Of a stretch of DNA of 64,000 nt, positions 1 through 19,334 are shown in pieces. The DNA is taken from contig JAIPJM010000002.1 in NCBI GenBank assembly GCA_021734255.1, forward strand, positions 1 to 64,000, written 5' to 3'. A program made the position numbers and the translations under genes. Position 1 is the first letter of the stretch, and each line of letters begins with the position of its first letter. The notes below the pieces were generated by a model. It was not told the DNA's origin. It saw only the letters and a list, made by a program, of their open reading frames with translations, and did no database searches. The stretch is from Fidelibacterota bacterium (GTDB taxonomy: Bacteria > Fidelibacterota > UBA8477 > JABMPR01).

Positions 1-95
1 TGAACAGGGTTACATTCATCTCGCCTCCGCTATTGTTGGGTTACAGAATGGCAGAGACACTCCTTATAGCCCTGCCCTCTAGTTGCGGGGCTATT

Positions 96-521
96 CTATT
101 TTATTAAAGCCAGATATTCAATCGTTTTGGACAGGTATGCAAAAATAGTGCGAAACTGATTTTGTTGTCGTTCTGAGAGGACCACGGCCACCATATTGAC
201 CAGATTCTCGATGAAGGGTCGATAAGGTGAGAATTCCCGCTCACTGGATATTGTCAGGTGGAGCTTCCCATGGCTAATATCCCTGTAGGTCAGTGGAAAT
301 GTAAACTCAGAATAACTGGTTTCAGGAGCGCTCTGTTTTGATGACCCAAGGTCTGCAGTATCGAACTCAACCTTAGAAATACCAGGAACCTCGATCAGCC
401 CACTGCAAATAAGATCAGAGATCTGATCTGTCCCTTGCATACTTGTGATCATACCCTGCATAAGGGTGATCTGTCCCAATACCTGGGCAGAAAGTGATCC
501 TGCTTCAGTTTTTGGAGGCAT
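96..521 (-). CDS. Small GAF-like / signalling-associated hypothetical protein
   Basis: 141 aa ORF overlapping the end of the upstream MEDS gene by 17 bp; sequence pattern (FPLTYRDISHGKLHLTIS...FIENLVNMVAVVLSERQ) resembles the second half of a GAF domain. Confidence 0.55.
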   Translation of the reverse strand: MPPKTEAGSLSAQVLGQITLMQGMITSMQGTDQISDLICSGLIEVPGISKVEFDTADLGSSKQSAPETSYSEFTFPLTYRDISHGKLHLTISSEREFSPYRPFIENLVNMVAVVLSERQQNQFRTIFAYLSKTIEYLALIK

Positions 522-1411: not shown

Positions 1412-1424
1412 TGCATTTTTTGCA
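1412..1424. promoter_or_regulatory. Candidate activator-binding palindrome TGCAT-N4-TGCA (site 1)
   Basis: tgcattttttgca, intergenic, upstream of ORF 1579; same pattern at four other intergenic sites. Confidence 0.55.
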
Positions 1425-1523
1425 TGGTTGGATGCACTTTTATTCAATTCGTCGCCTTGATCATATGACGCCCTTAATTTGTATCTATATATTTCTTTGT
1501 GACTTACAGCCTTAATTCCGTGT

Positions 1524-1539
1524 TGGCATATATTTTGGG
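1524..1539 (+). promoter_or_regulatory. Candidate sigma54 promoter TGGCATA-N4-TTGGG
   Basis: tggcatatattttggg with -24/-12 spacing, 106 bp downstream of the centre of site 1. Confidence 0.5.
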
Positions 1540-1578
1540 TATACTTATGCAGAAAACATGAAAATAAAGGAATAACAC

Positions 1579-1941
1579 GTGGAATATAATATCGATCGCA
1601 ACATACGAGAAAATGAAGAGGGGCTTATCCTCATCGTTGATACCAACCCTGAAACATCTCAGATGACATCGAATCTACTGAAGATCTATGGCTTTCAAAC
1701 GATAGCAACCGACAAATCCAGTGGTACCCACTCACTATGCCGGGACCTGCCCATATCAATTATCATTGCAGATAAGTTGATCAGTGGACTCAACGACATC
1801 AACTACAGTAGAAAGATCATGATCGATCATTTGCAGGAACGATTCATTGGCATTCCAAACGGCAATGAACGGGATGATCGTATGCAGGAGGAGATGGCAG
1901 ATATGCTGTCAGCGCTCTTGTCTGTAAACAGTTATAATTGA
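1579..1941 (+). CDS. Truncated/atypical response-regulator receiver domain protein
   Basis: N-terminal receiver pattern (LILIVDTNPETSQMTSNLLKIYGFQTIATD...ISIIIADKLISGL) but the C-terminal third with the conserved Lys is not recognisable. Confidence 0.6.
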   Translation: MEYNIDRNIRENEEGLILIVDTNPETSQMTSNLLKIYGFQTIATDKSSGTHSLCRDLPISIIIADKLISGLNDINYSRKIMIDHLQERFIGIPNGNERDDRMQEEMADMLSALLSVNSYN

Positions 1942-2268
1942 ATCCATCAATTCCAGTCTTGCACTTTCCAGTTTACGCGATCATGGCCAATCAGGACTTA
2001 CTCCGAATGGCCCTCTGTTCTGAGGTCCAAAGAGCTGCAGGCATGGGTCTGATAAGTGTGCAATTTCTGAAATTGGGCCATGAAATTACTACATATCCGA
2101 ACACAATTGACCTTAAGGCAATATTTATAAGATATTAATTATTATTATTTTATATAGACATACAAGCGTTGGTATGGTTCTTTCATAATATGAAGTGTAA
2201 TAATTTGGTAATCAATGAACGAAGACCAGGAATCGCCCCTAAAACAGCAGGGATTCCAGGAGGTAAAG

Positions 2269-2829
2269 ATGAAGCAACGAGTCCTGAATATTCTGATCCT
2301 TTCTACCATCCTTTTCACAGGAAGCGCTCTCGCTAATGACGCCAATAATTGTATGAATATACTTCCCAAAGGGATCTACTCGGAACTCAGCAAGATCGGA
2401 TGGTTTGCAGAATACGAGTTATGCACTGAGGTCAACCCCATGTATCAACGCGGAGATTTCAATGGGGATGGTGCAATAGATTTTGCCGTTCAAATTCGTG
2501 CAAAAAAGACTGGGAAACGCGGTATTCTCATTATGCATGCCAATGATTCCTTTCTGCACGTCATTGGAGCTGGTGTAAAAATGGGTGATCTTGGGGACAA
2601 TTTTGATTGGTTGAACCAGTGGAAGATAGACTCGTATACCGTGCGCCGTTCACGTTATGGGTCTTCGGTGGAAGCCCTGGTATTGAATCACCCAACACAC
2701 CCGGGCACACTTGTGTTCTGGGATGGCAAAGGCTACATCGCCCATGAGCTGGAAGCCTATTATTACTATTCCGACTCAATCCATATCACACAATCCCTGG
2801 ATTCGGATTTAGCGGCTAACTTACCTTAG
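2269..2829 (+). CDS. Secreted hypothetical protein
   Basis: ATG at 2269 preceded by AGGAGG; signal peptide MKQRVLNILILSTILFTGSALA; contains RGDFNGDGAIDFAV (FG-GAP-like). Confidence 0.75.
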   Translation: MKQRVLNILILSTILFTGSALANDANNCMNILPKGIYSELSKIGWFAEYELCTEVNPMYQRGDFNGDGAIDFAVQIRAKKTGKRGILIMHANDSFLHVIGAGVKMGDLGDNFDWLNQWKIDSYTVRRSRYGSSVEALVLNHPTHPGTLVFWDGKGYIAHELEAYYYYSDSIHITQSLDSDLAANLP

Positions 2830-2951
2830 GATCCGATCTTACTCTGTGCCTGCCCCTATACACCTCCCAACATCGTCTATAAGAGGCAGGCTCCAGAGGT
2901 CCGGCATTCAGACTTACTCCCTTTCCCAAAACATACGCTGAGACTGAAAAG

Positions 2952-2981
2952 AGCAAGCCCCATGCTGAGATGGGGCTTGCT
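2952..2981. terminator. Rho-independent (possibly bidirectional) terminator
   Basis: Perfect 12-bp stem AGCAAGCCCCAT/ATGGGGCTTGCT with 6-nt loop, between convergent genes; T-rich flank. Confidence 0.75.
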
Positions 2982-3008
2982 TGTGCTCATCTTTTTTAGT
3001 GTCAGGAT

Positions 3009-4355
3009 CTAGATATCATACTTCTCCAGACGATTATAAAGCGTACGCAGGCTGATCCCAAGCACACGTGCTACCTGGGATTTATTACCCCCCAATTCGT
3101 GATAAGCTTTCAGGATATGTTCCCTTTCAATCTCCTCAAGGGGTAGGATATCTGACTCTCCCTGATAACTATTGTCGATATTTTCGCTCACCTGTAGAAT
3201 CTCGGGCGGCAGTTTTTCAATTTTAAGATCCTTACCACCGGATAGGAGCAAGACCCGTTCTAAGGCATTTTGCAGTTCCCTCACATTGCCCGGCCAACTA
3301 TAATTCATGAGCCTTTGAATAAATTCAGACTCACTATCATACCTGACACCTTCCAAACCCTTTTTCGTACAGACGTATTCAACCAGTTTGGGAATATCTG
3401 ATTTCCGCTTGCTTAAGGGTGGCACATCTATGATGAACGGACTGAGCCGATAAAACAGATCTTCTCTAAAGCTACCAGATCCCACCATACTCTTTAAGTC
3501 CCGATTTGTGGAGGTGAGGACGCGGAAATCCGATTCCAATTCCTTGTGTCCACCCACTCTTCGAAATTGCCCGGATTCTAAGGTTCTGAGTAGCTTGGCC
3601 TGAAGTCTCTCATCCATCTCCCCAATTTCGTCAAGCAGGATCGTCCCTTTATTGGCGACTTCAAAAAGACCGTATTTTCTTGCATTTGCTCCGGAAAAGG
3701 CGCCTCGTTCATGTCCGAATAATTCACTTTCCAGGAGGTCGTGCGGTATTGCCGCACAATTGATGGCCACAAAGGGATGATCTTTCCTTTTCCCCTTTTC
3801 ATGAATGGATCTGGCAACGAGTTCCTTACCGGTACCCGTTTTACCAGTGATCAGGACAGCGATATCCGATTGGCTCACTTGCTCAATATCAGATTTAACT
3901 TTTCGAATACCAGACGAATTACCGATAATGACGGTAGATTCGCTTCCAGAGATCGCCTGACGCAAGGCTTTATTGTTAAGCCTGATCTTGTAAACATTGT
4001 GGATCTTTTTGGCGATCTTTAATAGTTCTTCGTTTGAGACTGGTTTCACCAGATATTCATCTGCACCCGTCTTAATGGCTTCCACAGCGGTCTCAATAGA
4101 CGAGTACCCGGTGAATAGTACGATATACGTATCTTCAGATTTTTTCCTTATCTCTGTTGTAAGATCAAGACCTGTCATGGACGGCATCATGATATCTGAA
4201 AATATCAGTTCATAGGAGGCATCATTGAACATCTGCAGTGCTTCCTTGCCATCCTGAGCCGTATCAACGTCATATCCCTCCGAAGTAAGCACCTTCTTAA
4301 GACCTTTACGAATCCCTTCTTCATCGTCTACAATCAGGATTTTATAATCTTCCAC
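3009..4355 (-). CDS. Sigma54-dependent response regulator, NtrC family (receiver - AAA+ - Fis HTH)
   Basis: Receiver KILIVDDEEGI; Walker A GKTGTGKE; GAFSGA loop; DEIGEM; C-terminal Fis HTH GNKSQVARVLGISLRTLYNRLEKY. Confidence 0.95.
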   Translation of the reverse strand: MEDYKILIVDDEEGIRKGLKKVLTSEGYDVDTAQDGKEALQMFNDASYELIFSDIMMPSMTGLDLTTEIRKKSEDTYIVLFTGYSSIETAVEAIKTGADEYLVKPVSNEELLKIAKKIHNVYKIRLNNKALRQAISGSESTVIIGNSSGIRKVKSDIEQVSQSDIAVLITGKTGTGKELVARSIHEKGKRKDHPFVAINCAAIPHDLLESELFGHERGAFSGANARKYGLFEVANKGTILLDEIGEMDERLQAKLLRTLESGQFRRVGGHKELESDFRVLTSTNRDLKSMVGSGSFREDLFYRLSPFIIDVPPLSKRKSDIPKLVEYVCTKKGLEGVRYDSESEFIQRLMNYSWPGNVRELQNALERVLLLSGGKDLKIEKLPPEILQVSENIDNSYQGESDILPLEEIEREHILKAYHELGGNKSQVARVLGISLRTLYNRLEKYDI

Positions 4356-4372
4356 AATATACCTCCGACCTA

Positions 4373-7054
4373 TTATTTAGGTTCATCATCTTGATTGCTC
4401 ATCGCCAGGTTTACCTTAATAAGCAATTGATCCTTATCCCACGGTTTTCTTAAATAACTGGTATTTGGTAGTTTATCTATGCTCTCTTCCACATCAAGTT
4501 CAATGTTCCCACTACTGATGATGATGTGGGTATCGATCTCTTTTTTACGAACGACCTCGATGAATTCGAGTCCTGACATTCCTGGCAGCGCGAGATCACA
4601 AATGATCAGATCAAAAACCGTGTGGTCTTTCAATAAAATATCCAATGCCTCTTCAGCGGTTTCGTACGCCTGGATCTTATGACCCTTCCTGACTAATATT
4701 TTCTCAGCAGCAGACCTTATTATTTCTTCATCGTCGATGAATAGAATGTTCAAGTCAGTCCTGTCCACCAAGTCCTCCATTTCAGTTTGTCCGTCTTCTT
4801 CTTTTTCTTCGCCCTCCGTAATTGGGAATAGAACATGAAAACAAGTTCCTCTATCCAACTCCGTGTCGACCCTTATTGCACCGCCCATATCTGTGATCAT
4901 ACCGTAGGCTACAGACAATCCCAGACCGGTACCCTGACCTGATGATCTCTTTGTAAAAAATGGATCGTACATGTGTTTGGCTGTTTCTTCATCCATGCCC
5001 TGGCCGGTGTCACAGATCTTCAACTCCAGGTAATCATTCCCTGCTGGTACTTCAAATAACTCCAGCGCTTTTGCGTCGGCATAATCGTAATGGATTCTCA
5101 GGATCTTATCTCTACCCTCAATATCCTCCATTGCCTGCACAGCATTCTCGCAGAGGCACAACACTATTTGATCAATGTAAGTGGGATCACACTGGATCAT
5201 CTTAACCTCTTTGTTGATCGACTGTTCAATTTTTATGGCTTTTGGAGCTGTGGCGCTGATCAGTTTCAGTACTTCGCTAATAATTGCCTGACTACGTACC
5301 CGCTGGATTTGTGGTTTGTTATGTCGGCTAAATGTTAATATCTGTCTTACCAACTGGGAGGCACGCTCCCTTACCTTTTCTATTTGCAGGTAATTCTCAT
5401 ATAGCTCATCATCCTCAGATAGATATCCTTTCATGAGCCCCAGGTTCAAACTTTGCACCTGCAGAATATTATTGAATTCATGGCCAATGCCACCAGCCAA
5501 ACGCCCGATCGCCTCTAATCTTTGAGATTGATGCAGCTGATTGGTCAGCTCAGCTTGTTTTTCTTCCAGCAAAGCCCGCTCAGTCTCATCCCGGGACACT
5601 GCGATAATACCACGCACCTTGCCTTTATTATCGAGCATGGGTGTATACTTGACCCTGAGCAGCCTTCTGCCCTTCTGCGGAAGGGTGACCCATTCACTGA
5701 AGTTCACAACGTTTCCCTCACGGCAGCTGATCAATTTTTGCTCAATGGAGTCAAAAGTTTCTATGCCGAGAACTTCCCTCAGTGATTTTCCAGCCAAATT
5801 CTCGCCTTCCCTATTGAATGCTTTATTATAGGCTGTATTGGTACTCTCATACTTAAAATCTAACGATATAAGCGTGATGATATCATCCGATTGTTCAACC
5901 AACTCAGCAATGAGCGTTTTCTGTTCTTCTGTAACTTTCCGCTCGGTAATATCCGTACCCGTCGACAGTATTGTCACCAATTCTTCATTCGTGTTCTTGT
6001 GTGCTGAGCTCCGCCATTCAATAATTCGCAGGTCACCACTTTTTGTAAGCACTGGAGATTCAGTTATGATAGGTTCATCCTCGCCGGATTCCATCACGTC
6101 TTTTAATGATTGTCTCACTGCGTTCTGTTTATAGCCCGGGATACAGGTAGTAATCCAGTCCTTACCGATTAGATCACTTGTCGGGTAACCCAGAAGTTTT
6201 GATCCAGACGTATTTATCTTTCTAACCTTGCCAGTCCCATCCAGCAACAGGATGATCTCTGACGCCAGATCAAAATACTGCTCCAGTTCCTGTTTCTGTG
6301 TTTTAAGCTCATCCTCAATCCGAACGAGTTTAGAGATGTCAGTTGCACAGATAAGTACAGCATCTTTCTGCTGATAGCTAACCGGAATAATTATTTCTTG
6401 AACTGGGTATTTCTCTCCAGCAGCATTTTTATAATTATGTCGCTCCCAGAGACGATCGCGTGAACCTGAAAATAGCGTCTTGATCGAACGCTTAAGTTTT
6501 TCCTCGTAGCTCTCATCGCGGATTTCCCGTACGTGCAATCCAACTATCCCGCCCCCTTGATTGGCCTGCTGCGCCGCGCTGTTATTAAAGAGGTAGATCA
6601 AATCTTGAATATCAACAATGTACAACTCAATGGGTATCTTACCAATTATGCCTGCGAATGCCTCCAATTCTAAGGCCATATCACCTGATGTAGTCAGGTG
6701 CTCTTTAATGGCCAGATAATGACTTATCTGGTTCTTGTTATCTCTGACAGGAATGATCTGGGCACTTTCAGTGTAGAGCTCACCATCTTTCTTTTTATTT
6801 TGAAAAAGTCCATGCCACACGTTTCCAGAGGTGATGGTCTCCCACATATCCTTGTAGAAGTCTTTCGATTGGCGACCTGATTGGAGCATCCGGGCGTTTG
6901 CCCCCAGTAATTCTGATTCAGAATATCCTGTAAGTTCCACAAATTTGGGATTCACATATTCTATGCTCCCCTCAGAATCCGTAATCATAATGGAAGCTGT
7001 ACTATTCTGGAGTATGAGGTCCAGGATCTGGCTGTTGGCTTTGATATCATCCAT
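4373..7054 (-). CDS. Multi-PAS hybrid sensor histidine kinase with C-terminal receiver
   Basis: Several PAS repeats, GGIGHEFNNILQ H-box, CDTGQGMDEET / GTGLGLSVAYGM ATPase motifs, C-terminal ILFIDDEE receiver; 18 bp upstream of the NtrC-type regulator. Confidence 0.95.
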   Translation of the reverse strand: MDDIKANSQILDLILQNSTASIMITDSEGSIEYVNPKFVELTGYSESELLGANARMLQSGRQSKDFYKDMWETITSGNVWHGLFQNKKKDGELYTESAQIIPVRDNKNQISHYLAIKEHLTTSGDMALELEAFAGIIGKIPIELYIVDIQDLIYLFNNSAAQQANQGGGIVGLHVREIRDESYEEKLKRSIKTLFSGSRDRLWERHNYKNAAGEKYPVQEIIIPVSYQQKDAVLICATDISKLVRIEDELKTQKQELEQYFDLASEIILLLDGTGKVRKINTSGSKLLGYPTSDLIGKDWITTCIPGYKQNAVRQSLKDVMESGEDEPIITESPVLTKSGDLRIIEWRSSAHKNTNEELVTILSTGTDITERKVTEEQKTLIAELVEQSDDIITLISLDFKYESTNTAYNKAFNREGENLAGKSLREVLGIETFDSIEQKLISCREGNVVNFSEWVTLPQKGRRLLRVKYTPMLDNKGKVRGIIAVSRDETERALLEEKQAELTNQLHQSQRLEAIGRLAGGIGHEFNNILQVQSLNLGLMKGYLSEDDELYENYLQIEKVRERASQLVRQILTFSRHNKPQIQRVRSQAIISEVLKLISATAPKAIKIEQSINKEVKMIQCDPTYIDQIVLCLCENAVQAMEDIEGRDKILRIHYDYADAKALELFEVPAGNDYLELKICDTGQGMDEETAKHMYDPFFTKRSSGQGTGLGLSVAYGMITDMGGAIRVDTELDRGTCFHVLFPITEGEEKEEDGQTEMEDLVDRTDLNILFIDDEEIIRSAAEKILVRKGHKIQAYETAEEALDILLKDHTVFDLIICDLALPGMSGLEFIEVVRKKEIDTHIIISSGNIELDVEESIDKLPNTSYLRKPWDKDQLLIKVNLAMSNQDDEPK

Positions 7055-7112
7055 GTTAGGCTCTTTCAGGTCTTCATCTAATTAATTTCTGGTGTTCATC
7101 CTCTGCATTATC

Positions 7113-7128
7113 TACAAGCATGATGCCA
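7113..7128 (-). promoter_or_regulatory. Candidate sigma54 promoter TGGCATC-N4-TTGTA
   Basis: Minus strand TTGGCATCATGCTTGTA upstream of the hybrid kinase; 103 bp downstream of the centre of palindrome site 2. Confidence 0.55.
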
Positions 7129-7224
7129 AGCCACATTCAATCGTTATCTACTAGTATATATTAGTGTTAAGGTCGTCTTACCTTAGGTTATAATAATCCT
7201 TTTTGCAGATTATGCAAGGCGTTT

Positions 7225-7237
7225 TGCATAATTTGCA
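7225..7237. promoter_or_regulatory. Candidate activator-binding palindrome TGCAT-N4-TGCA (site 2)
   Basis: tgcataatttgca; overlaps the perfect inverted repeat TTATGCAA-N6-TTGCATAA (7210-7231). Confidence 0.55.
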
Positions 7238-7365
7238 TGGTCTCGCTCCGACGTAGTGATCAAGCGACCAGTACCCACCAATCACATCAGATCAATCACT
7301 ATTTCCGCCTCCAGCACCTCCTGTATTAATGGCGGGAATGGTATGAATAATATTCAAACCCGGCA

Positions 7366-7378
7366 TGCATATCGTGCA
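7366..7378. promoter_or_regulatory. Candidate activator-binding palindrome TGCAT-N4-TGCA (site 3)
   Basis: tgcatatcgtgca, identical to the 13-mer at 10584-10596. Confidence 0.55.
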
Positions 7379-7455
7379 AAACGGTGAGTTCTCGATCGAC
7401 TGTCACACTAATATATCTATATGTTTATATTAATGTTATATCTCATTCATCAAAC

Positions 7456-7471
7456 TGGCATGATTATCTCC
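7456..7471 (+). promoter_or_regulatory. Weak sigma54-like -24 element (TGGCAT) upstream of ORF 7561
   Basis: ctggcatgattatctcc; good -24, poor -12; 84 bp from the centre of site 3. Confidence 0.25.
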
Positions 7472-7560
7472 ATAGTATGTTGTAGAGATGATGATATGAA
7501 AATCCTTGCCATCAGCATACATGACCACTCACTGAAACGCTTCAGTTATGATCCAATACC

Positions 7561-8094
7561 ATGTCTCTTGGGTTCACCCTGGGTAAGCGAGCGTGCAGCA
7601 TGCTGAGACGACTGGTCATATTGTCCTTCTTACCCATTATGCTCCTGGGCCAATTCTTCTCCTACCTTCCGTTTGAATATCAAAGCGAGGACACGGTGAG
7701 CTCGCGCGTTGTGCTTCTGTCCAACGATACGCTCTATTTTTCATTCATCAGGTTTGACGACGAATATGTATATGGTCATGATATAGCTGAACAGGTTGAC
7801 CACATCCTTGATTGGGATGAGGTCCTTGTCATCGAATTCAATCTCGACATTTCCCTCGGTGATTTCAGTACACCAATCGTAGCCAAGGACTTGTTGGTTA
7901 CAAATAATGGTGAGCGCATCGCTTGCGCAGTCCTGGAAATAAGTAGTCTGAAGGCAACATTTGTTCGATCTAATTCGCGTAGGAAAGAACAACTGGATGT
8001 TCGTAAAGTGGATAATCTAGCGCTCTTCAATAATACACGACCAAATCCCTATGCTACTCCACCGCCAGCCTTAGCAGAACAGCTGGGTGGATAA
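7561..8094 (+). CDS. Hypothetical protein, possibly exported (start may be the internal ATG at 7600)
   Basis: 177 aa ORF; from the internal Met: MLRRLVILSFLPIMLLGQFF, signal/anchor-like. Confidence 0.5.
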   Translation: MSLGFTLGKRACSMLRRLVILSFLPIMLLGQFFSYLPFEYQSEDTVSSRVVLLSNDTLYFSFIRFDDEYVYGHDIAEQVDHILDWDEVLVIEFNLDISLGDFSTPIVAKDLLVTNNGERIACAVLEISSLKATFVRSNSRRKEQLDVRKVDNLALFNNTRPNPYATPPPALAEQLGG

Positions 8095-8252
8095 GCTCCG
8101 TCACATCCCACACGCCACGTATTTAGTCCCAGATCTCACACTTCCGATTCTCCTCCTGGGTAGCCTGGAATGAATTGCAGAACTTCCTGCACGTATTACA
8201 GTGAAATATCTGCAAATGAGTTTTGCGCTATGCATATTTTTCAAACCAAGCA

Positions 8253-8265
8253 TGCATTATATGCA
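8253..8265. promoter_or_regulatory. Candidate activator-binding palindrome TGCAT-N4-TGCA (site 4)
   Basis: tgcattatatgca, intergenic, upstream of kinase 8423. Confidence 0.55.
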
Positions 8266-8353
8266 TTTTCTACAGTCCTGGCCCGCATGTATTATTTTAT
8301 AATTAATTATTATTATTGATTTTGGATGCCTTTTTGGGATAGCGGTACACAAT

Positions 8354-8369
8354 TGGCATTTTAAGGATG
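8354..8369 (+). promoter_or_regulatory. Weak sigma54-like element TTGGCAT upstream of kinase 8423
   Basis: ttggcattttaaggatg; strong -24, poor -12; 95 bp from the centre of site 4. Confidence 0.3.
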
Positions 8370-8422
8370 TGAAAAGCTGACAAATAAAGCAAAAAACCCT
8401 CATTGTTAGCCAGGAGTATATT

Positions 8423-9559
8423 ATGGAACTTCATATCGATTCATACCTCGAGCAAGAAATTACTCCCTTCCCTACGGACCCTAAAAATTTTATCGGGAGT
8501 TTACAGCAAAAACGCCCTGAAATCTGGAAGAATGTGCTGACCAGTTTAATATCCGATGCTATCATCATTGTTGATGGCAACGATCAATCGGTCTATACAA
8601 ATAATAAACTTTTGGAAATACTTGGAATAAATGATACTGCGGTCCATGGTGCAAAAACAAGTGACATTCTGAATTGTGTGCACACCGATCCGATGGGTGG
8701 AGGTTGTGGATCAACGGAATTCTGTAACGATTGTGAGCTGCGAAAAACAATTCAACTGGCACAGAATCGCGGCCAAAGTAGAAGAGAATGCAGGATCAGA
8801 GCAAAGGGTGGTCGTGCACTTGAACTGGAGGTTAAGGCGGAGCACTTTGAGTTTGACTATGAACAATTCACCATTTTGACCTTACGTGATATCAGTAGTG
8901 AGAAGCGCAGGAAGGCACTGGAGAGAACCTTTTTCCACGATATTTTGAACACTGCTGGCGTTATTCATTCTGCATCGAAACTACTTAATGGAGATGAGAG
9001 CAAAAATCAGACATTTATGGACATGATCACGCGAAGCTCTCTAAACCTGATCGAAGAGATCAAATCTCATCGACTCCTTTTACAGGCAGAGAATGGTGAC
9101 CTGACTCCCCACATGACCCTCTTCAGTCCAAAGTCCAAAATTGTCGAAGTTGTGAAAGACCTTGAATACAATCCGATTTCCAAGGGAAAAACGCTGATTA
9201 CTGATGAATTCCTATCAAGTGCCGTTGTCGAATCTGATCCGGTGATTTTTGGAAGAGTGCTTCTCAACCTGGTAAAAAATGCCCTGGAAGCGTCCAATCA
9301 TGATGAGGCGGTTTCAGTCGGCTGCTTCGACTCTGCAGGCGGTGTTACCATATCCATCCACAATCCAACATATATTCCCCTTGATGTTCAACATCAGATC
9401 TTTCAAAGATCCTACTCTACAAAAGGTGAGGGCCGCGGCATAGGAACGTATAGCGTCAAGCTATTTGTCGAAGAATACCTTGAAGGTCGTGTGTGGTTTG
9501 AATCCTCTGTGCACACGGGGACTGTATTTTATGTATTTCTTCCAACAAATGAGGGTTGA
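8423..9559 (+). CDS. PAS sensor histidine kinase with Cys-rich PAS domain
   Basis: NCVHTDPMGGGCGSTEFCNDCELRKTI; H-box FFHDILNTAG; N-box LLNLVKNALEAS; G-box GRGIGTYSVKLFVE. Confidence 0.9.
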   Translation: MELHIDSYLEQEITPFPTDPKNFIGSLQQKRPEIWKNVLTSLISDAIIIVDGNDQSVYTNNKLLEILGINDTAVHGAKTSDILNCVHTDPMGGGCGSTEFCNDCELRKTIQLAQNRGQSRRECRIRAKGGRALELEVKAEHFEFDYEQFTILTLRDISSEKRRKALERTFFHDILNTAGVIHSASKLLNGDESKNQTFMDMITRSSLNLIEEIKSHRLLLQAENGDLTPHMTLFSPKSKIVEVVKDLEYNPISKGKTLITDEFLSSAVVESDPVIFGRVLLNLVKNALEASNHDEAVSVGCFDSAGGVTISIHNPTYIPLDVQHQIFQRSYSTKGEGRGIGTYSVKLFVEEYLEGRVWFESSVHTGTVFYVFLPTNEG

Positions 9560-9612
9560 GGAATAAAACAGGATCGCATCATGATCCTGCATTCCTCATA
9601 CGTAGGAAACGA

Positions 9613-9641
9613 GAGAGGGGCCAAATACTCCGGTCCCTCTC
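9613..9641 (+). terminator. Probable terminator hairpin downstream of kinase 8423
   Basis: GAGAGGGGCC / GGTCCCTCTC stem with one wobble pair; weak T-tract. Confidence 0.45.
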
Positions 9642-9782
9642 TTCATTGATCTATTTTTACATTCAAACGCTTACACCAAACCAAAACTATATTCAGATCG
9701 AAAGCTTCATCCGCTCAAAGCAGTATCCATATTCCTTATTGTGCATGAATACGTAGAAATCAATCCCATATTGAGTCAAAAT

Positions 9783-9902
9783 ATGTTTAGGGTTGAGCTT
9801 GAAGAACCACGCTCACTTTCGTACATAGCCGCTCCTGAGCATATTGTGACTGCGGAATACGTCCGAAGGGCCTTGAAGGATGCCATATTACCAGGTTCGT
9901 GA
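9783..9902 (+). pseudogene. Short ORF resembling the N-terminus of a GntR-family regulator (possible remnant)
   Basis: Translation MFRVELEEPRSLSYIAAPEHIVTAEYVRRALKDAILPGS*; the VRRALKDAILPG part resembles GntR wHTH N-termini. Confidence 0.25.
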
Positions 9903-10020
9903 AGTCCCCTATTGGACCCTAACTTCAACCTACTGAAACCCTATTTATCCGTACTAAGGCCTGCCATTAGGTGGCACATAGATAGAAAGGGAATTGATTT
10001 AAAGTTGGGGCCCGAAATTT

Positions 10021-10461
10021 TTATTCGGGTATTATGGTTTGGTATTGATGTTTCTCTGAGTGCATGACTGAATTAATAACATTCACGAAATCAACGTGGC
10101 TAAACGGTTTGACAAAAGAATCTTTTGCCCCCAAGGATTTCGCCCATTCCAAACATTCAGGAAGGTAAGTTCCGCCGCTACCGGACATCGCTACAATTTT
10201 TACGTCAGGGTCTATTTCCCGTAAATCACTAATCAGGGAAAGACCATCCTTTTCCGGCATGTAGACATCTGTAATTATCAAATCCACAGGGGTCGTTTTA
10301 TAGATCAATTCAGCTTCACAACCATTACCGGCCTCAATACATAGGTATCCATACATGGTTAAAACTACATTCAAAAGTTCACGCACCTCAACCTTGTCAT
10401 CGACAATCAGAACGACTTTTTGTTCACCTGGGTAATAAGTATCTTCATGTGAGTTTGTCAT
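10021..10461 (-). CDS. Single-domain response regulator (CheY-like)
   Basis: KVVLIVDDKVEVRELLNVVL...LIITDVYMPEKDGLSLI...KDSFVKPFSH; start set to 10461 because GGAGGG lies 7 nt upstream (ORF track start 10476). Confidence 0.9.
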   Translation of the reverse strand: MTNSHEDTYYPGEQKVVLIVDDKVEVRELLNVVLTMYGYLCIEAGNGCEAELIYKTTPVDLIITDVYMPEKDGLSLISDLREIDPDVKIVAMSGSGGTYLPECLEWAKSLGAKDSFVKPFSHVDFVNVINSVMHSEKHQYQTIIPE

Positions 10462-10491
10462 TTTGTGACCCTCCACTCTCGTATGAGTAGA

Positions 10492-10507
10492 TTCAATCTC
10501 TATGCCA
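10492..10507 (-). promoter_or_regulatory. Candidate sigma54 promoter TGGCATA-N4-TTGAA
   Basis: Minus strand tggcatagagattgaa; 83 bp downstream of the centre of palindrome site 5. Confidence 0.55.
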
Positions 10508-10583
10508 CCCTTTTAATATGGGCTTTATATACTGTTATTATTGCTCTTAGAGGATTTTATGATTTCTCCATCTCGACATAAAG

Positions 10584-10596
10584 TGCATATCGTGCA
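10584..10596. promoter_or_regulatory. Candidate activator-binding palindrome TGCAT-N4-TGCA (site 5)
   Basis: tgcatatcgtgca, identical to site 3. Confidence 0.55.
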
Positions 10597-10734
10597 TACG
10601 GGTCTATGCATTTTTTACCTATAGTGAAATATTGATTCAGCTTTGGGACCAACCTACGTTCGCCCTGGCCAAAAGGGCTGGTATGGCTACGGCTCTGTAA
10701 GCAGGGCTAGGCGACTGCAGCTGTATCCCTTGAA

Positions 10735-17120: not shown

Positions 17121-19334
17121 CTATACCAACATACTCTCCTCACCCCCGTCTTTTACAAAAATGCAGGATGAATTGATATTCTCTGCAAGATCGTGCATGA
17201 TATCTGCATCCAGGTCATTACTGAGCCCAAAGACATTCAGATCAGCCGCCGGTGCTTCCGCCAGAGACGTCTGAAAATCACCGACCAGGGCCCGTGCTTC
17301 CGTACCTGCAGGCATCCGCGTACTATCAATGAGACGTTCCAGAACCATTTGAGATTTCTGCTGAGTTTGCTCATCTAGAGCTACCGTGATGAACCGGAGC
17401 CTGGCATCCCAACTGCGTTTTAGTTGTAATGCCATGAGAACCGCCAGGTCCTTGTTTGGACTAGATCGCCGCAACCACACATTGATCACATTGCGATTGC
17501 CAAGCGCATTTTTTGGATGCAGAGATAATACAACAATTCCCAATTGCTCACGTATGGCTATAACGATCATCTCTTCCAGACGGTTATCTTTATTGCGATC
17601 AGAACTCATGGTAAGGAAGATCACATTGGGCGGGAAATGCATCCCCTGCATTACCTGGGTAATGATACTCATACCCTCAAGGAAGTTATGACATTCCACA
17701 ACATTTGATGTTGCCAGGATCCCCTCATCACGAACAGGCGCCAGTAGCTCATCTAGCTTGGTCTCAAGCTTGCTGGTCTCTTCCTCTTCCACGTGAGCAT
17801 GCACATGTTCCTTTTCTCTATAGCGTTTTCCAAATATCTGACTGGCCAGGCCGCGAATGGCAACCTGAACCCCCTCTCCAATGATTCGCACTGAGAACAC
17901 TCGCAATGTCCCTGCAGGAAACACGATGTCCCTTAAAAATGTCATCAACTGTGGCCAATTCGTGGGATCTTCCACAGGGATCATCAGGTTTGGTTTCCAG
18001 GTCTTGGGATGTTTTGGCATCTGGGCCACTTTACGGGCACCCCATTCCGCAATAGCATTCATTAAGCCGACCCGGACGTCTCCCCAGGGTGTACGGAGAC
18101 CCCGTTTAATTTGAATGACATAGAATATGAGGATCAGTGTCCAGGCCACACCTGCAAAGATAGGATCTATCATGAACATGATAACGATGGCCCATAGGGC
18201 TCCGATGATCGGGACCCAGATCGGACTGCTGAAACGGGGGCGAAAGGAAGGAATACCGATCCCTTTTTCTATGGCAACTGCAATGTTTATCGTTGCATAG
18301 GTAATGAGGAAGAACATGGTTAGGAGGGGTGCGATACTATTTAAGTCACCGAGAACAAGGGCAACCAGGATGGCCACCGATGTAAAGATGATCGCTGGGA
18401 CAGGTTCACCTTTTTTGGTCTTTTTCCCAAGTATTCGATCAAAGGGAAAGGCACGGTCCTGGGCCATTGCCATCAGGGTCCGAGGTGCCCCTACCACGCT
18501 CCCAAGTGCACTGGAAAATGTTGCGCCCAACACACCGGCTGCCAACAGCACACGCCAGCGGGAAAGCTCAAACATGATCGTGTTATTGGACACGAGTTGC
18601 TCTGCACTCGCCTGGTGATCCAGCCAGAATGCTACTCCGATATATACAAACAATGAGATACCGATGGCTGAAAGCATACCTGCAGGCAGACTTTTACGAG
18701 AGTCTTTCAGGTCCCCTGACATGGCAGCACCAGCTTCAATTCCTGTCACCGCTGGGAAGAAAATTGAGAAAACGACCCAAAAACCAGCCGTTTCAAAGGT
18801 CCCCCAAACGGTGATAGTCGATTGTTCGGGTTGATCACCTAAAAAGAATGAAGCGAGTGACACAATGATGACCCCCATGATTACGAATTGGAAGCGCATG
18901 GCAAATTGAGCACCTATCAGGCTGATCACCACTGTGAGAAAAAGGAGAGAAAAACCCACCAATAGGGCTGGGTGGGATGGAAATAGTGCCAGCCACGCTT
19001 CGGTAAAGCCGGTGATATACATAGCACCACCGAGCGTCTGTGAAAGAAACAGGGGTACCCCTACGGCACTCCCGACTTCTAACCCCAGGGAACGAGAGAT
19101 AAGGGCGTATGAGCCTCCTGCTCCAACTTTGGTATTGGTGGCAATCGAGGCTATTGAAAGACCTGTGGTAATGGTGATGACCTTCGCCAGCAGGATGATA
19201 AGGATGGCTCCACCCAGGCCGGCATTACCGACGACCCAACCCAACCTTAGATACATGATGACTCCCAGGATGGTTAGGATCGTGGGCGTAAAGACACCTT
19301 CAAATGTACTTAGACCACCTTTTTTCTCGTTCAC
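17121..19334 (-). CDS. APC-superfamily transporter, SLC12 (cation-chloride cotransporter)-like, with C-terminal cytosolic domain
   Basis: GVFTPTILTILGVIMYLRLGWVVGNAGLGGAILIILLAKVITITTGLSIASIATN; GTG start at 19334 with AGGAG upstream is preferred over the ORF-track start. Confidence 0.88.
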   Translation of the reverse strand: MNEKKGGLSTFEGVFTPTILTILGVIMYLRLGWVVGNAGLGGAILIILLAKVITITTGLSIASIATNTKVGAGGSYALISRSLGLEVGSAVGVPLFLSQTLGGAMYITGFTEAWLALFPSHPALLVGFSLLFLTVVISLIGAQFAMRFQFVIMGVIIVSLASFFLGDQPEQSTITVWGTFETAGFWVVFSIFFPAVTGIEAGAAMSGDLKDSRKSLPAGMLSAIGISLFVYIGVAFWLDHQASAEQLVSNNTIMFELSRWRVLLAAGVLGATFSSALGSVVGAPRTLMAMAQDRAFPFDRILGKKTKKGEPVPAIIFTSVAILVALVLGDLNSIAPLLTMFFLITYATINIAVAIEKGIGIPSFRPRFSSPIWVPIIGALWAIVIMFMIDPIFAGVAWTLILIFYVIQIKRGLRTPWGDVRVGLMNAIAEWGARKVAQMPKHPKTWKPNLMIPVEDPTNWPQLMTFLRDIVFPAGTLRVFSVRIIGEGVQVAIRGLASQIFGKRYREKEHVHAHVEEEETSKLETKLDELLAPVRDEGILATSNVVECHNFLEGMSIITQVMQGMHFPPNVIFLTMSSDRNKDNRLEEMIVIAIREQLGIVVLSLHPKNALGNRNVINVWLRRSSPNKDLAVLMALQLKRSWDARLRFITVALDEQTQQKSQMVLERLIDSTRMPAGTEARALVGDFQTSLAEAPAADLNVFGLSNDLDADIMHDLAENINSSCIFVKDGGEESMLV

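Follow-up and report, generated by a model that had tools for sequence, protein, structure and literature searches.

Among described bacterial enhancer systems, those of AtoC, LuxO, and FlbD lie closest to a probable one that we characterize here in a 64,000-nucleotide stretch of Fidelibacterota bacterium DNA (GCA_021734255.1, contig JAIPJM010000002.1, positions 1 to 64,000; the window), in which 13-bp TGCA palindromes are clustered in an island of signaling genes that includes one for an NtrC-type activator (3009–4355). Like the 3009–4355 protein, AtoC of E. coli is an NtrC-family response regulator with a sigma-54 target, acting at the atoDAEB enhancer (PMC3118216). Its two adjacent sites, 21 bp apart, also have TGCA half-sites (GCTATGCAGAAATTTGCACA), but these are separated by six bases rather than five, and its partners and targets are different. 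LuxO of Vibrio recognizes TTGCAW3TGCAA upstream of the qrr genes (PMC11443567) and likewise combines a TGCA half-site with a sigma-54 promoter, using one or two sites ~90–120 bp upstream of the start; its half-site gap, however, is three bases, versus five in all six sites here, and its targets are small RNAs. FlbD of Caulobacter (GGCAxxxxxTGCC) shares the geometry, inverted repeats of 4 bp separated by 5 bp, but has a different half-site (PMC3333781). More broadly, D. vulgaris response regulators surveyed by DAP-chip often bind upstream of their own operons, and most such sites are inverted repeats of 4–6 bp with gaps of 3–8 bp (PMC3333781). Because the AtoC, LuxO, FlbD, and D. vulgaris sites are similar, a site of this type was to be expected; what is new is the particular regulon, together with its activator.

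AtoC is the best NCBIfam match of the 3009–4355 protein, at 421 bits against an equivalog cut-off of 714. For the LuxO family, where the cut-off is 800, the protein scores 355 bits. These curated cut-offs and the site gap rule out membership in either family. The closest solved full-length homologue is 4l4u (338 bits), an NtrC4-type protein entered as "Transcriptional regulator (NtrC family)," which we take to be NtrC4 of Aquifex aeolicus; its recognition helix is near-identical (GIPLRTLYRRLKEYGI versus GISLRTLYNRLEKYDI), and its sigma-54 contact loop reads GAFTGA versus GAFSGA here. The protein has an N-terminal Response_reg domain (114 bits), an AAA+ domain (Sigma54_activat, 225 bits) with Walker motifs GKTGTGK and LLDEIGEM, and a C-terminal Fis-type helix-turn-helix (HTH_8, 50 bits), and it is encoded 17 bp downstream of a hybrid kinase gene, behind promoter B. 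The genome (label G000; 2.87 Mb in 59 contigs, the window being contig 22:1–64000) encodes RpoN (Sigma54_DBD, E 2e-57) and eight convincing sigma-54 activators (bacterial enhancer-binding proteins, bEBPs), of which the 3009–4355 protein is one.

A first-pass annotation of the window had reported five intergenic copies of TGCATNNNNTGCA. All five are present and intergenic, but the total was too low: a sixth intergenic copy at 7204–7216, reading TGCATAATCTGCA on the minus strand and lying 21 bp from the 7225 site, had been overlooked. The sites are best described as TGCA-N5-TGCA, a 13-bp inverted repeat, and among gaps of 0–19 bases between TGCA half-sites in the window, five is the commonest. 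Six intergenic copies thus fall within a 9.2-kb island (Poisson P = 1.8e-9), and a further match in the window (17638–17650) is inside a gene. With both strands counted, dinucleotide shuffling gave an expectation of 1.25 matches per window, which does not agree with the earlier statement that fewer than one copy would be expected; eight were observed, a number reached in 0 of 100 shuffles. The plain motif is not rare genome-wide (43 strand-counted matches in 2.87 Mb). A genome scan, which the annotation had proposed as a check on whether the motif is equally common in coding and unrelated regions, nevertheless set the island apart: with open reading frames (ORFs) called mechanically, its sites are intergenic in 6/6 cases, whereas all 33 distinct TGCATN4TGCA sites elsewhere lie in ORFs, 32 of them in ORFs longer than 160 aa and one in a 63-aa ORF.

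Each of the five island promoters (A–E, Table 1) has a TGGCAT, the -24 box of sigma-54 promoters, between palindrome and gene and on the gene's strand only, 82–106 bp downstream of the sites. The shuffle probability of TGGCAT is 0.02–0.13 per promoter, and its presence in all five is unlikely by chance. TTG follows at -12 (TGGCAY-N5-TTG) in A, B, and E. Across the window and related genomes, center-to-TGGCAY distances of exact sites are 81–84, 95, or 103–106 bp, with nothing else within 125 bp, and they cluster at a 10.5-bp period (Rayleigh R 0.82; P ~2e-5 for 16 sites, ~2e-4 with one site per promoter). A pair at ~83 and ~105 bp upstream of TGGCAY was present in 12 of 14 promoters once the second site was permitted one to two half-site mismatches. 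Nearly all sites lie 81–106 bp upstream of the -24 box, within the ~70–150 bp expected of dimer sites at sigma-54 promoters. A palindrome profile averaged over all distances was noisy and unconvincing alone; it is the exact distances that convince. The palindromes themselves were ruled out as -24/-12 promoters, the GG-GC spacing in C being 12 rather than 10.

Most activator homologues share 40%–43% identity with the 3009–4355 protein, and six genomes of the same genus have homologues clearly above this range. Those at 49%–61% adjoin sites in G003, G015, and G016, where intergenic TGCA-N5-TGCA palindromes, each followed by TGGCAY-N5-TTG, lie near two homologue copies in G003, two in G015, and one of two in G016. 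Sites also accompany two divergent promoters on G015 contig 165 and a further promoter on G012 contig 156, and an order-level relative (G020 contig 21) has a palindrome pair at 82/104 and promoter TGGCACGAAAGTTGG at the contig end, with a bEBP gene ~4 kb off. The composite of site and promoter with a -12 box was found in 15 of 245 phylum genomes, versus one match for a reversed control; matches concentrate in G000, G003, G015, G016, and G012, which hold most of the intergenic examples. Conservation in orthologous promoters, another check that had been proposed, was borne out for the CheY-like receiver at 10021–10476. Its 61%–63% orthologues occur, within the genus and at a cut of at least 60%, only in G003 and G015, and the sites are kept in 3/3 genomes, at 82 bp in both relatives versus 83 bp in the window, in promoters that otherwise align poorly. 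Elsewhere, a G016 site precedes a gene for a methyl-accepting chemotaxis protein and another G015 site a gene whose product carries a type IX secretion sorting tail. In a collection of named genomes, the closest activator homologues reach only 43%, and none of 33 TGGCAY-N5-TTG sites in 80 loci there had TGCA-N-TGCA at gaps of 2–9.

Taken together, these features make it very probable that the palindromes serve as bacterial enhancers (upstream activating sequences) for the 3009–4355 activator. The annotation's proposal that this protein binds the sites and governs an autoregulated local regulon thus gains support from the -24 boxes, RpoN, the relatives, the receiver orthologues, and the paralogue palindromes described below. 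Starting from anatomy and conservation that are read directly (sites, positions, -24 boxes, RpoN, relatives), we infer which protein binds and in which direction regulation runs, with binding, phosphorylation, and activation taken from knowledge of the family. The adjacent hybrid kinase would phosphorylate the activator, whose dimers would bind two 13-bp TGCA-N5-TGCA palindromes on the same face of the DNA, centered ~83 and ~105 bp ahead of the -24 box and offset from each other by 21–23 bp, or two helical turns. Assembly of the AAA+ ring and DNA looping would then permit ATP-driven opening of the closed complex of sigma-54 RNA polymerase at TGGCAY-N5-TTG. Predicted targets are the CheY-like receiver, the Cys-rich PAS kinase, a small exported protein, a divergent receiver-like protein, and the kinase-activator operon, which would be positively autoregulated since site B lies upstream of that operon itself. 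The mechanism fits a known kind, the classical enhancer; the regulon is new and its self-regulating circuit undescribed and unusually regular. A wider regulon in this genome was rejected: five of eight composite matches are the island promoters, and the three outside are C3, in an ORF, and C34 and C50, of unclassified context.

Several observations weigh against this interpretation. Promoters C and D have no recognizable -12 box and no TTG, the D pair lies one helical turn farther out (95/117), and A has only one good palindrome. The contact loop is GAFSGA instead of GAFTGA in the 3009–4355 protein, as in most of its subfamily, versus G[AS]FTGA in the genome's seven other bEBPs. In the relatives, the promoters are homologous and so not fully independent observations, the TGCA-linked activator of G016 falls outside the main TGCA clade in a tree, and G012, whose fragmented assembly is 91% complete, has a textbook tandem promoter but no close homologue of the activator in that assembly.

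This last case, together with the seven other bEBPs in the genome and the extra, partly degenerate paralogues beside sites in G003 and G015, would be accommodated if the sites were sigma-54 enhancers bound by a different bEBP, or shared by two. We consider this unlikely, because the sites are local to the activator operon in G000, G003, G015, and G016, and because 14 other genomes of the genus, G012 excepted, lack a composite match with a -12 box. Moreover, the recognition helices of TGCA-linked homologues are near-alike (ISLRTLYNRL in the window, ISLRSLYNKL, ISVRSLYNKL), whereas those of the genome's other seven bEBPs differ.

Use of the palindromes by a sigma-70-type repressor or activator, or by a silencer, with TGGCAT a coincidence, appears far less probable: palindromic sites by themselves are typical of many dimeric regulators, and C and D lack a -12 box, yet TGGCAT stands on the correct strand in 5/5 promoters at helical spacing, and the full TGGCAY-N5-TTG recurs in relatives. 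Slighter still is the likelihood of chance, base composition, or duplicated intergenic sequence. Although TGCA palindromes are common in the genome's coding sequence, those of the island cluster (P 2e-9) exclusively between genes and are conserved in relatives, and genome-wide placement and conservation led us to reject chance and composition as their origin. A repeated or mobile intergenic element was also ruled out, as flanks are unrelated except for ~20 bp common to C and D.

Beyond enhancers of the 3009–4355 type, we found what appear to be variants of the same arrangement. TGCA sites are absent at the 45%–49% homologues, namely the second G016 copy and those of G011, G017, and G002. Five sigma-54-like promoters near these homologues instead have 4/4 palindromes of 4-N5-4 geometry at 83–84 or 105–106 (joint shuffle P = 6e-7): AGAA-N5-TTCT at two promoters, GGCA-N5-TGCC (at the G011 paralogue), GTAA-N5-TTAC, and GGTA-N5-TACC. 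The promoter stands ahead of a stand-alone receiver gene in both G017 and G002, where a hybrid kinase gene and an NtrC-type gene lie alongside, and ahead of a receiver-domain gene in G016; the whole cassette thus recurs with a changed site. Recognition helices differ by few residues, from ISLRTLYNRL in the window to ISTRTLFTKL (AGAA), ISLRSLFNKL (GGCA), and ISLKTLYNKL (both GTAA and GGTA), a helix/half-site correlation drawn from few proteins.

The -12 element, too, appears altered. In Salmonella, most sigma-54 promoters read TTGC or TGC (PMC3844500). In the island promoters with TTG (A, B, and E), A, G, or T stands in place of the C; none of the promoters of this set with TTG at -12 reads TTGC, and C is the next base in only 2 of 45 genome matches of TGGCAY-N5-TTG, so that sigma-54 promoters here are TTGA/T/G and hardly ever TTGC. 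The helix-turn-helix of the genome's RpoN (contig 20, L147:6199–7554) reads MDISTISRV versus MHESTISRV in E. coli, with Ile aligned to E378. That residue has been genetically implicated in recognition of the -12 GC (PMC4496707). The co-occurrence of the RpoN Ile and a C-poor -12 element is a correlation within one lineage.

These observations lead us to a tentative model, to which we give slightly less than an even chance: paralogous hybrid kinase-activator-receiver cassettes would share a rigid geometry, with two 4-N5-4 palindromes ~83 and ~105 from -24, and would be insulated by swapping only the half-site (TGCA, GGCA, AGAA, GTAA, or GGTA) and the recognition helix; the sigma-54 on which they rely, an RpoN with Ile at E378, would no longer need C in its -12 element. 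The paralogue series, with its fixed geometry and changed half-sites, provides a test set both for DNA choice by NtrC-type Fis helices and for the insulation of duplicated two-component systems, and the changes at -12 and in RpoN open the long-standing question of -12 recognition to direct test. For an uncultured phylum, the outcome is a sigma-54 regulon resolved at the sequence level, to which an activator, a predicted binding site, and a promoter can be assigned.

Table 1. Sites, promoter elements, and genes of the island, by promoter
Feature	Coordinates	Strand	Basis and position
Site A TGCATTTTTTGCA, candidate upstream activating sequence for gene at 1579	1412..1424	+	Exact match; center 106 bp upstream of TGGCAT at 1524
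Sigma-54-like promoter A TGGCATATATTTTGG (-24/-12)	1524..1538	+	TGGCAY-N5-TTG
Divergent or truncated receiver-domain protein, probable target	1579..1941	+	Weak Response_reg match, E 0.005
Site B, distal	7225..7237	-	Exact match; 103 bp upstream of -24 box
Site B, proximal TGCATAATCTGCA	7204..7216	-	82 bp upstream of -24 box; 21 bp from distal site
Sigma-54-like promoter B TGGCATCATGCTTG	7115..7128	-	TGGCAY-N5-TTG; 74 nt ahead of kinase start codon
Hybrid histidine kinase (PAS repeats, HATPase, receiver), first gene of operon	4373..7054	-	Pfam
NtrC-type activator (receiver, AAA+ sigma-54 interaction domain with loop GAFSGA, Fis-type HTH), proposed binder of all sites	3009..4355	-	Pfam; homologues beside sites in relatives
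Site C TGCATATCGTGCA	7366..7378	+	84 bp upstream of TGGCAT 7456
Probable degenerate second C site TGAATAATATTCA	7344..7356	+	Palindrome, 6/8 half-site letters; conserved position, 106 bp upstream of TGGCAT
-24-like box C, TGGCAT, without TTG at -12	7456..7461	+	
Small, probably exported protein, probable target	7561..8094	+	ORF, hydrophobic N-terminus
Site D TGCATTATATGCA	8253..8265	+	95 bp upstream of TGGCAT 8354
Second D site TGCATATTTTTCA	8231..8243	+	7/8 half-site letters; 117 bp upstream of TGGCAT
-24-like box D, TGGCAT, without TTG at -12	8354..8359	+	
Cys-rich PAS histidine kinase, probable target	8423..9559	+	HATPase_c E 3e-14, PAS_9 E 1e-4
Site E, minus-strand reading TGCACGATATGCA	10584..10596	-	83 bp upstream of -24 box; kept in G003 and G015 orthologues
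Degenerate second E site GGTAAAAAATGCA	10607..10619	-	6/8; 106 bp upstream of -24 box
Sigma-54-like promoter E TGGCATAGAGATTG	10494..10507	-	TGGCAY-N5-TTG
CheY-like stand-alone receiver, conserved core target	10021..10476	-	Response_reg E 7e-20

Around their palindromes, promoters C and D (7344–7378 and 8240–8265) have an extended stretch, TTCAAACCNNGCATGCAT, in common. The small protein encoded downstream of C matched no Pfam family and has weak homologues (22%–26%) near sites in G003 and G015, and the PAS kinase downstream of D contains a Cys-rich motif, CVHTDPMGGGCGSTEFCNDC, with a possible role in metal binding or redox sensing. At the left edge of the window (60–130), the stretch TAGCCCTGCCCTCTAGTTGCGGGGCTATTCTATTTTATTAAAGCCAGATATTCAATCG is shared with the start of G000 contig 43 (L242), perhaps as a repeat or an assembly join.

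A sigma-54-like promoter also lies near a bEBP gene at G000 contig 6:2966–2981 (L032, L257), with tandem TCGAC/GTCGA-type palindromes ~97 and ~118 bp upstream by hand-read distances, 21 bp apart, which suggests that a second regulator of the genome uses this architecture too. Finally, two activator paralogues that adjoin TGCA sites, L080:2886–4259 in G003 and L081:3058–4413 in G015, keep the receiver and HTH and have degraded sigma-54 contact loops (ETFPET and GAFPGA); they could act as competitors or anti-activators.

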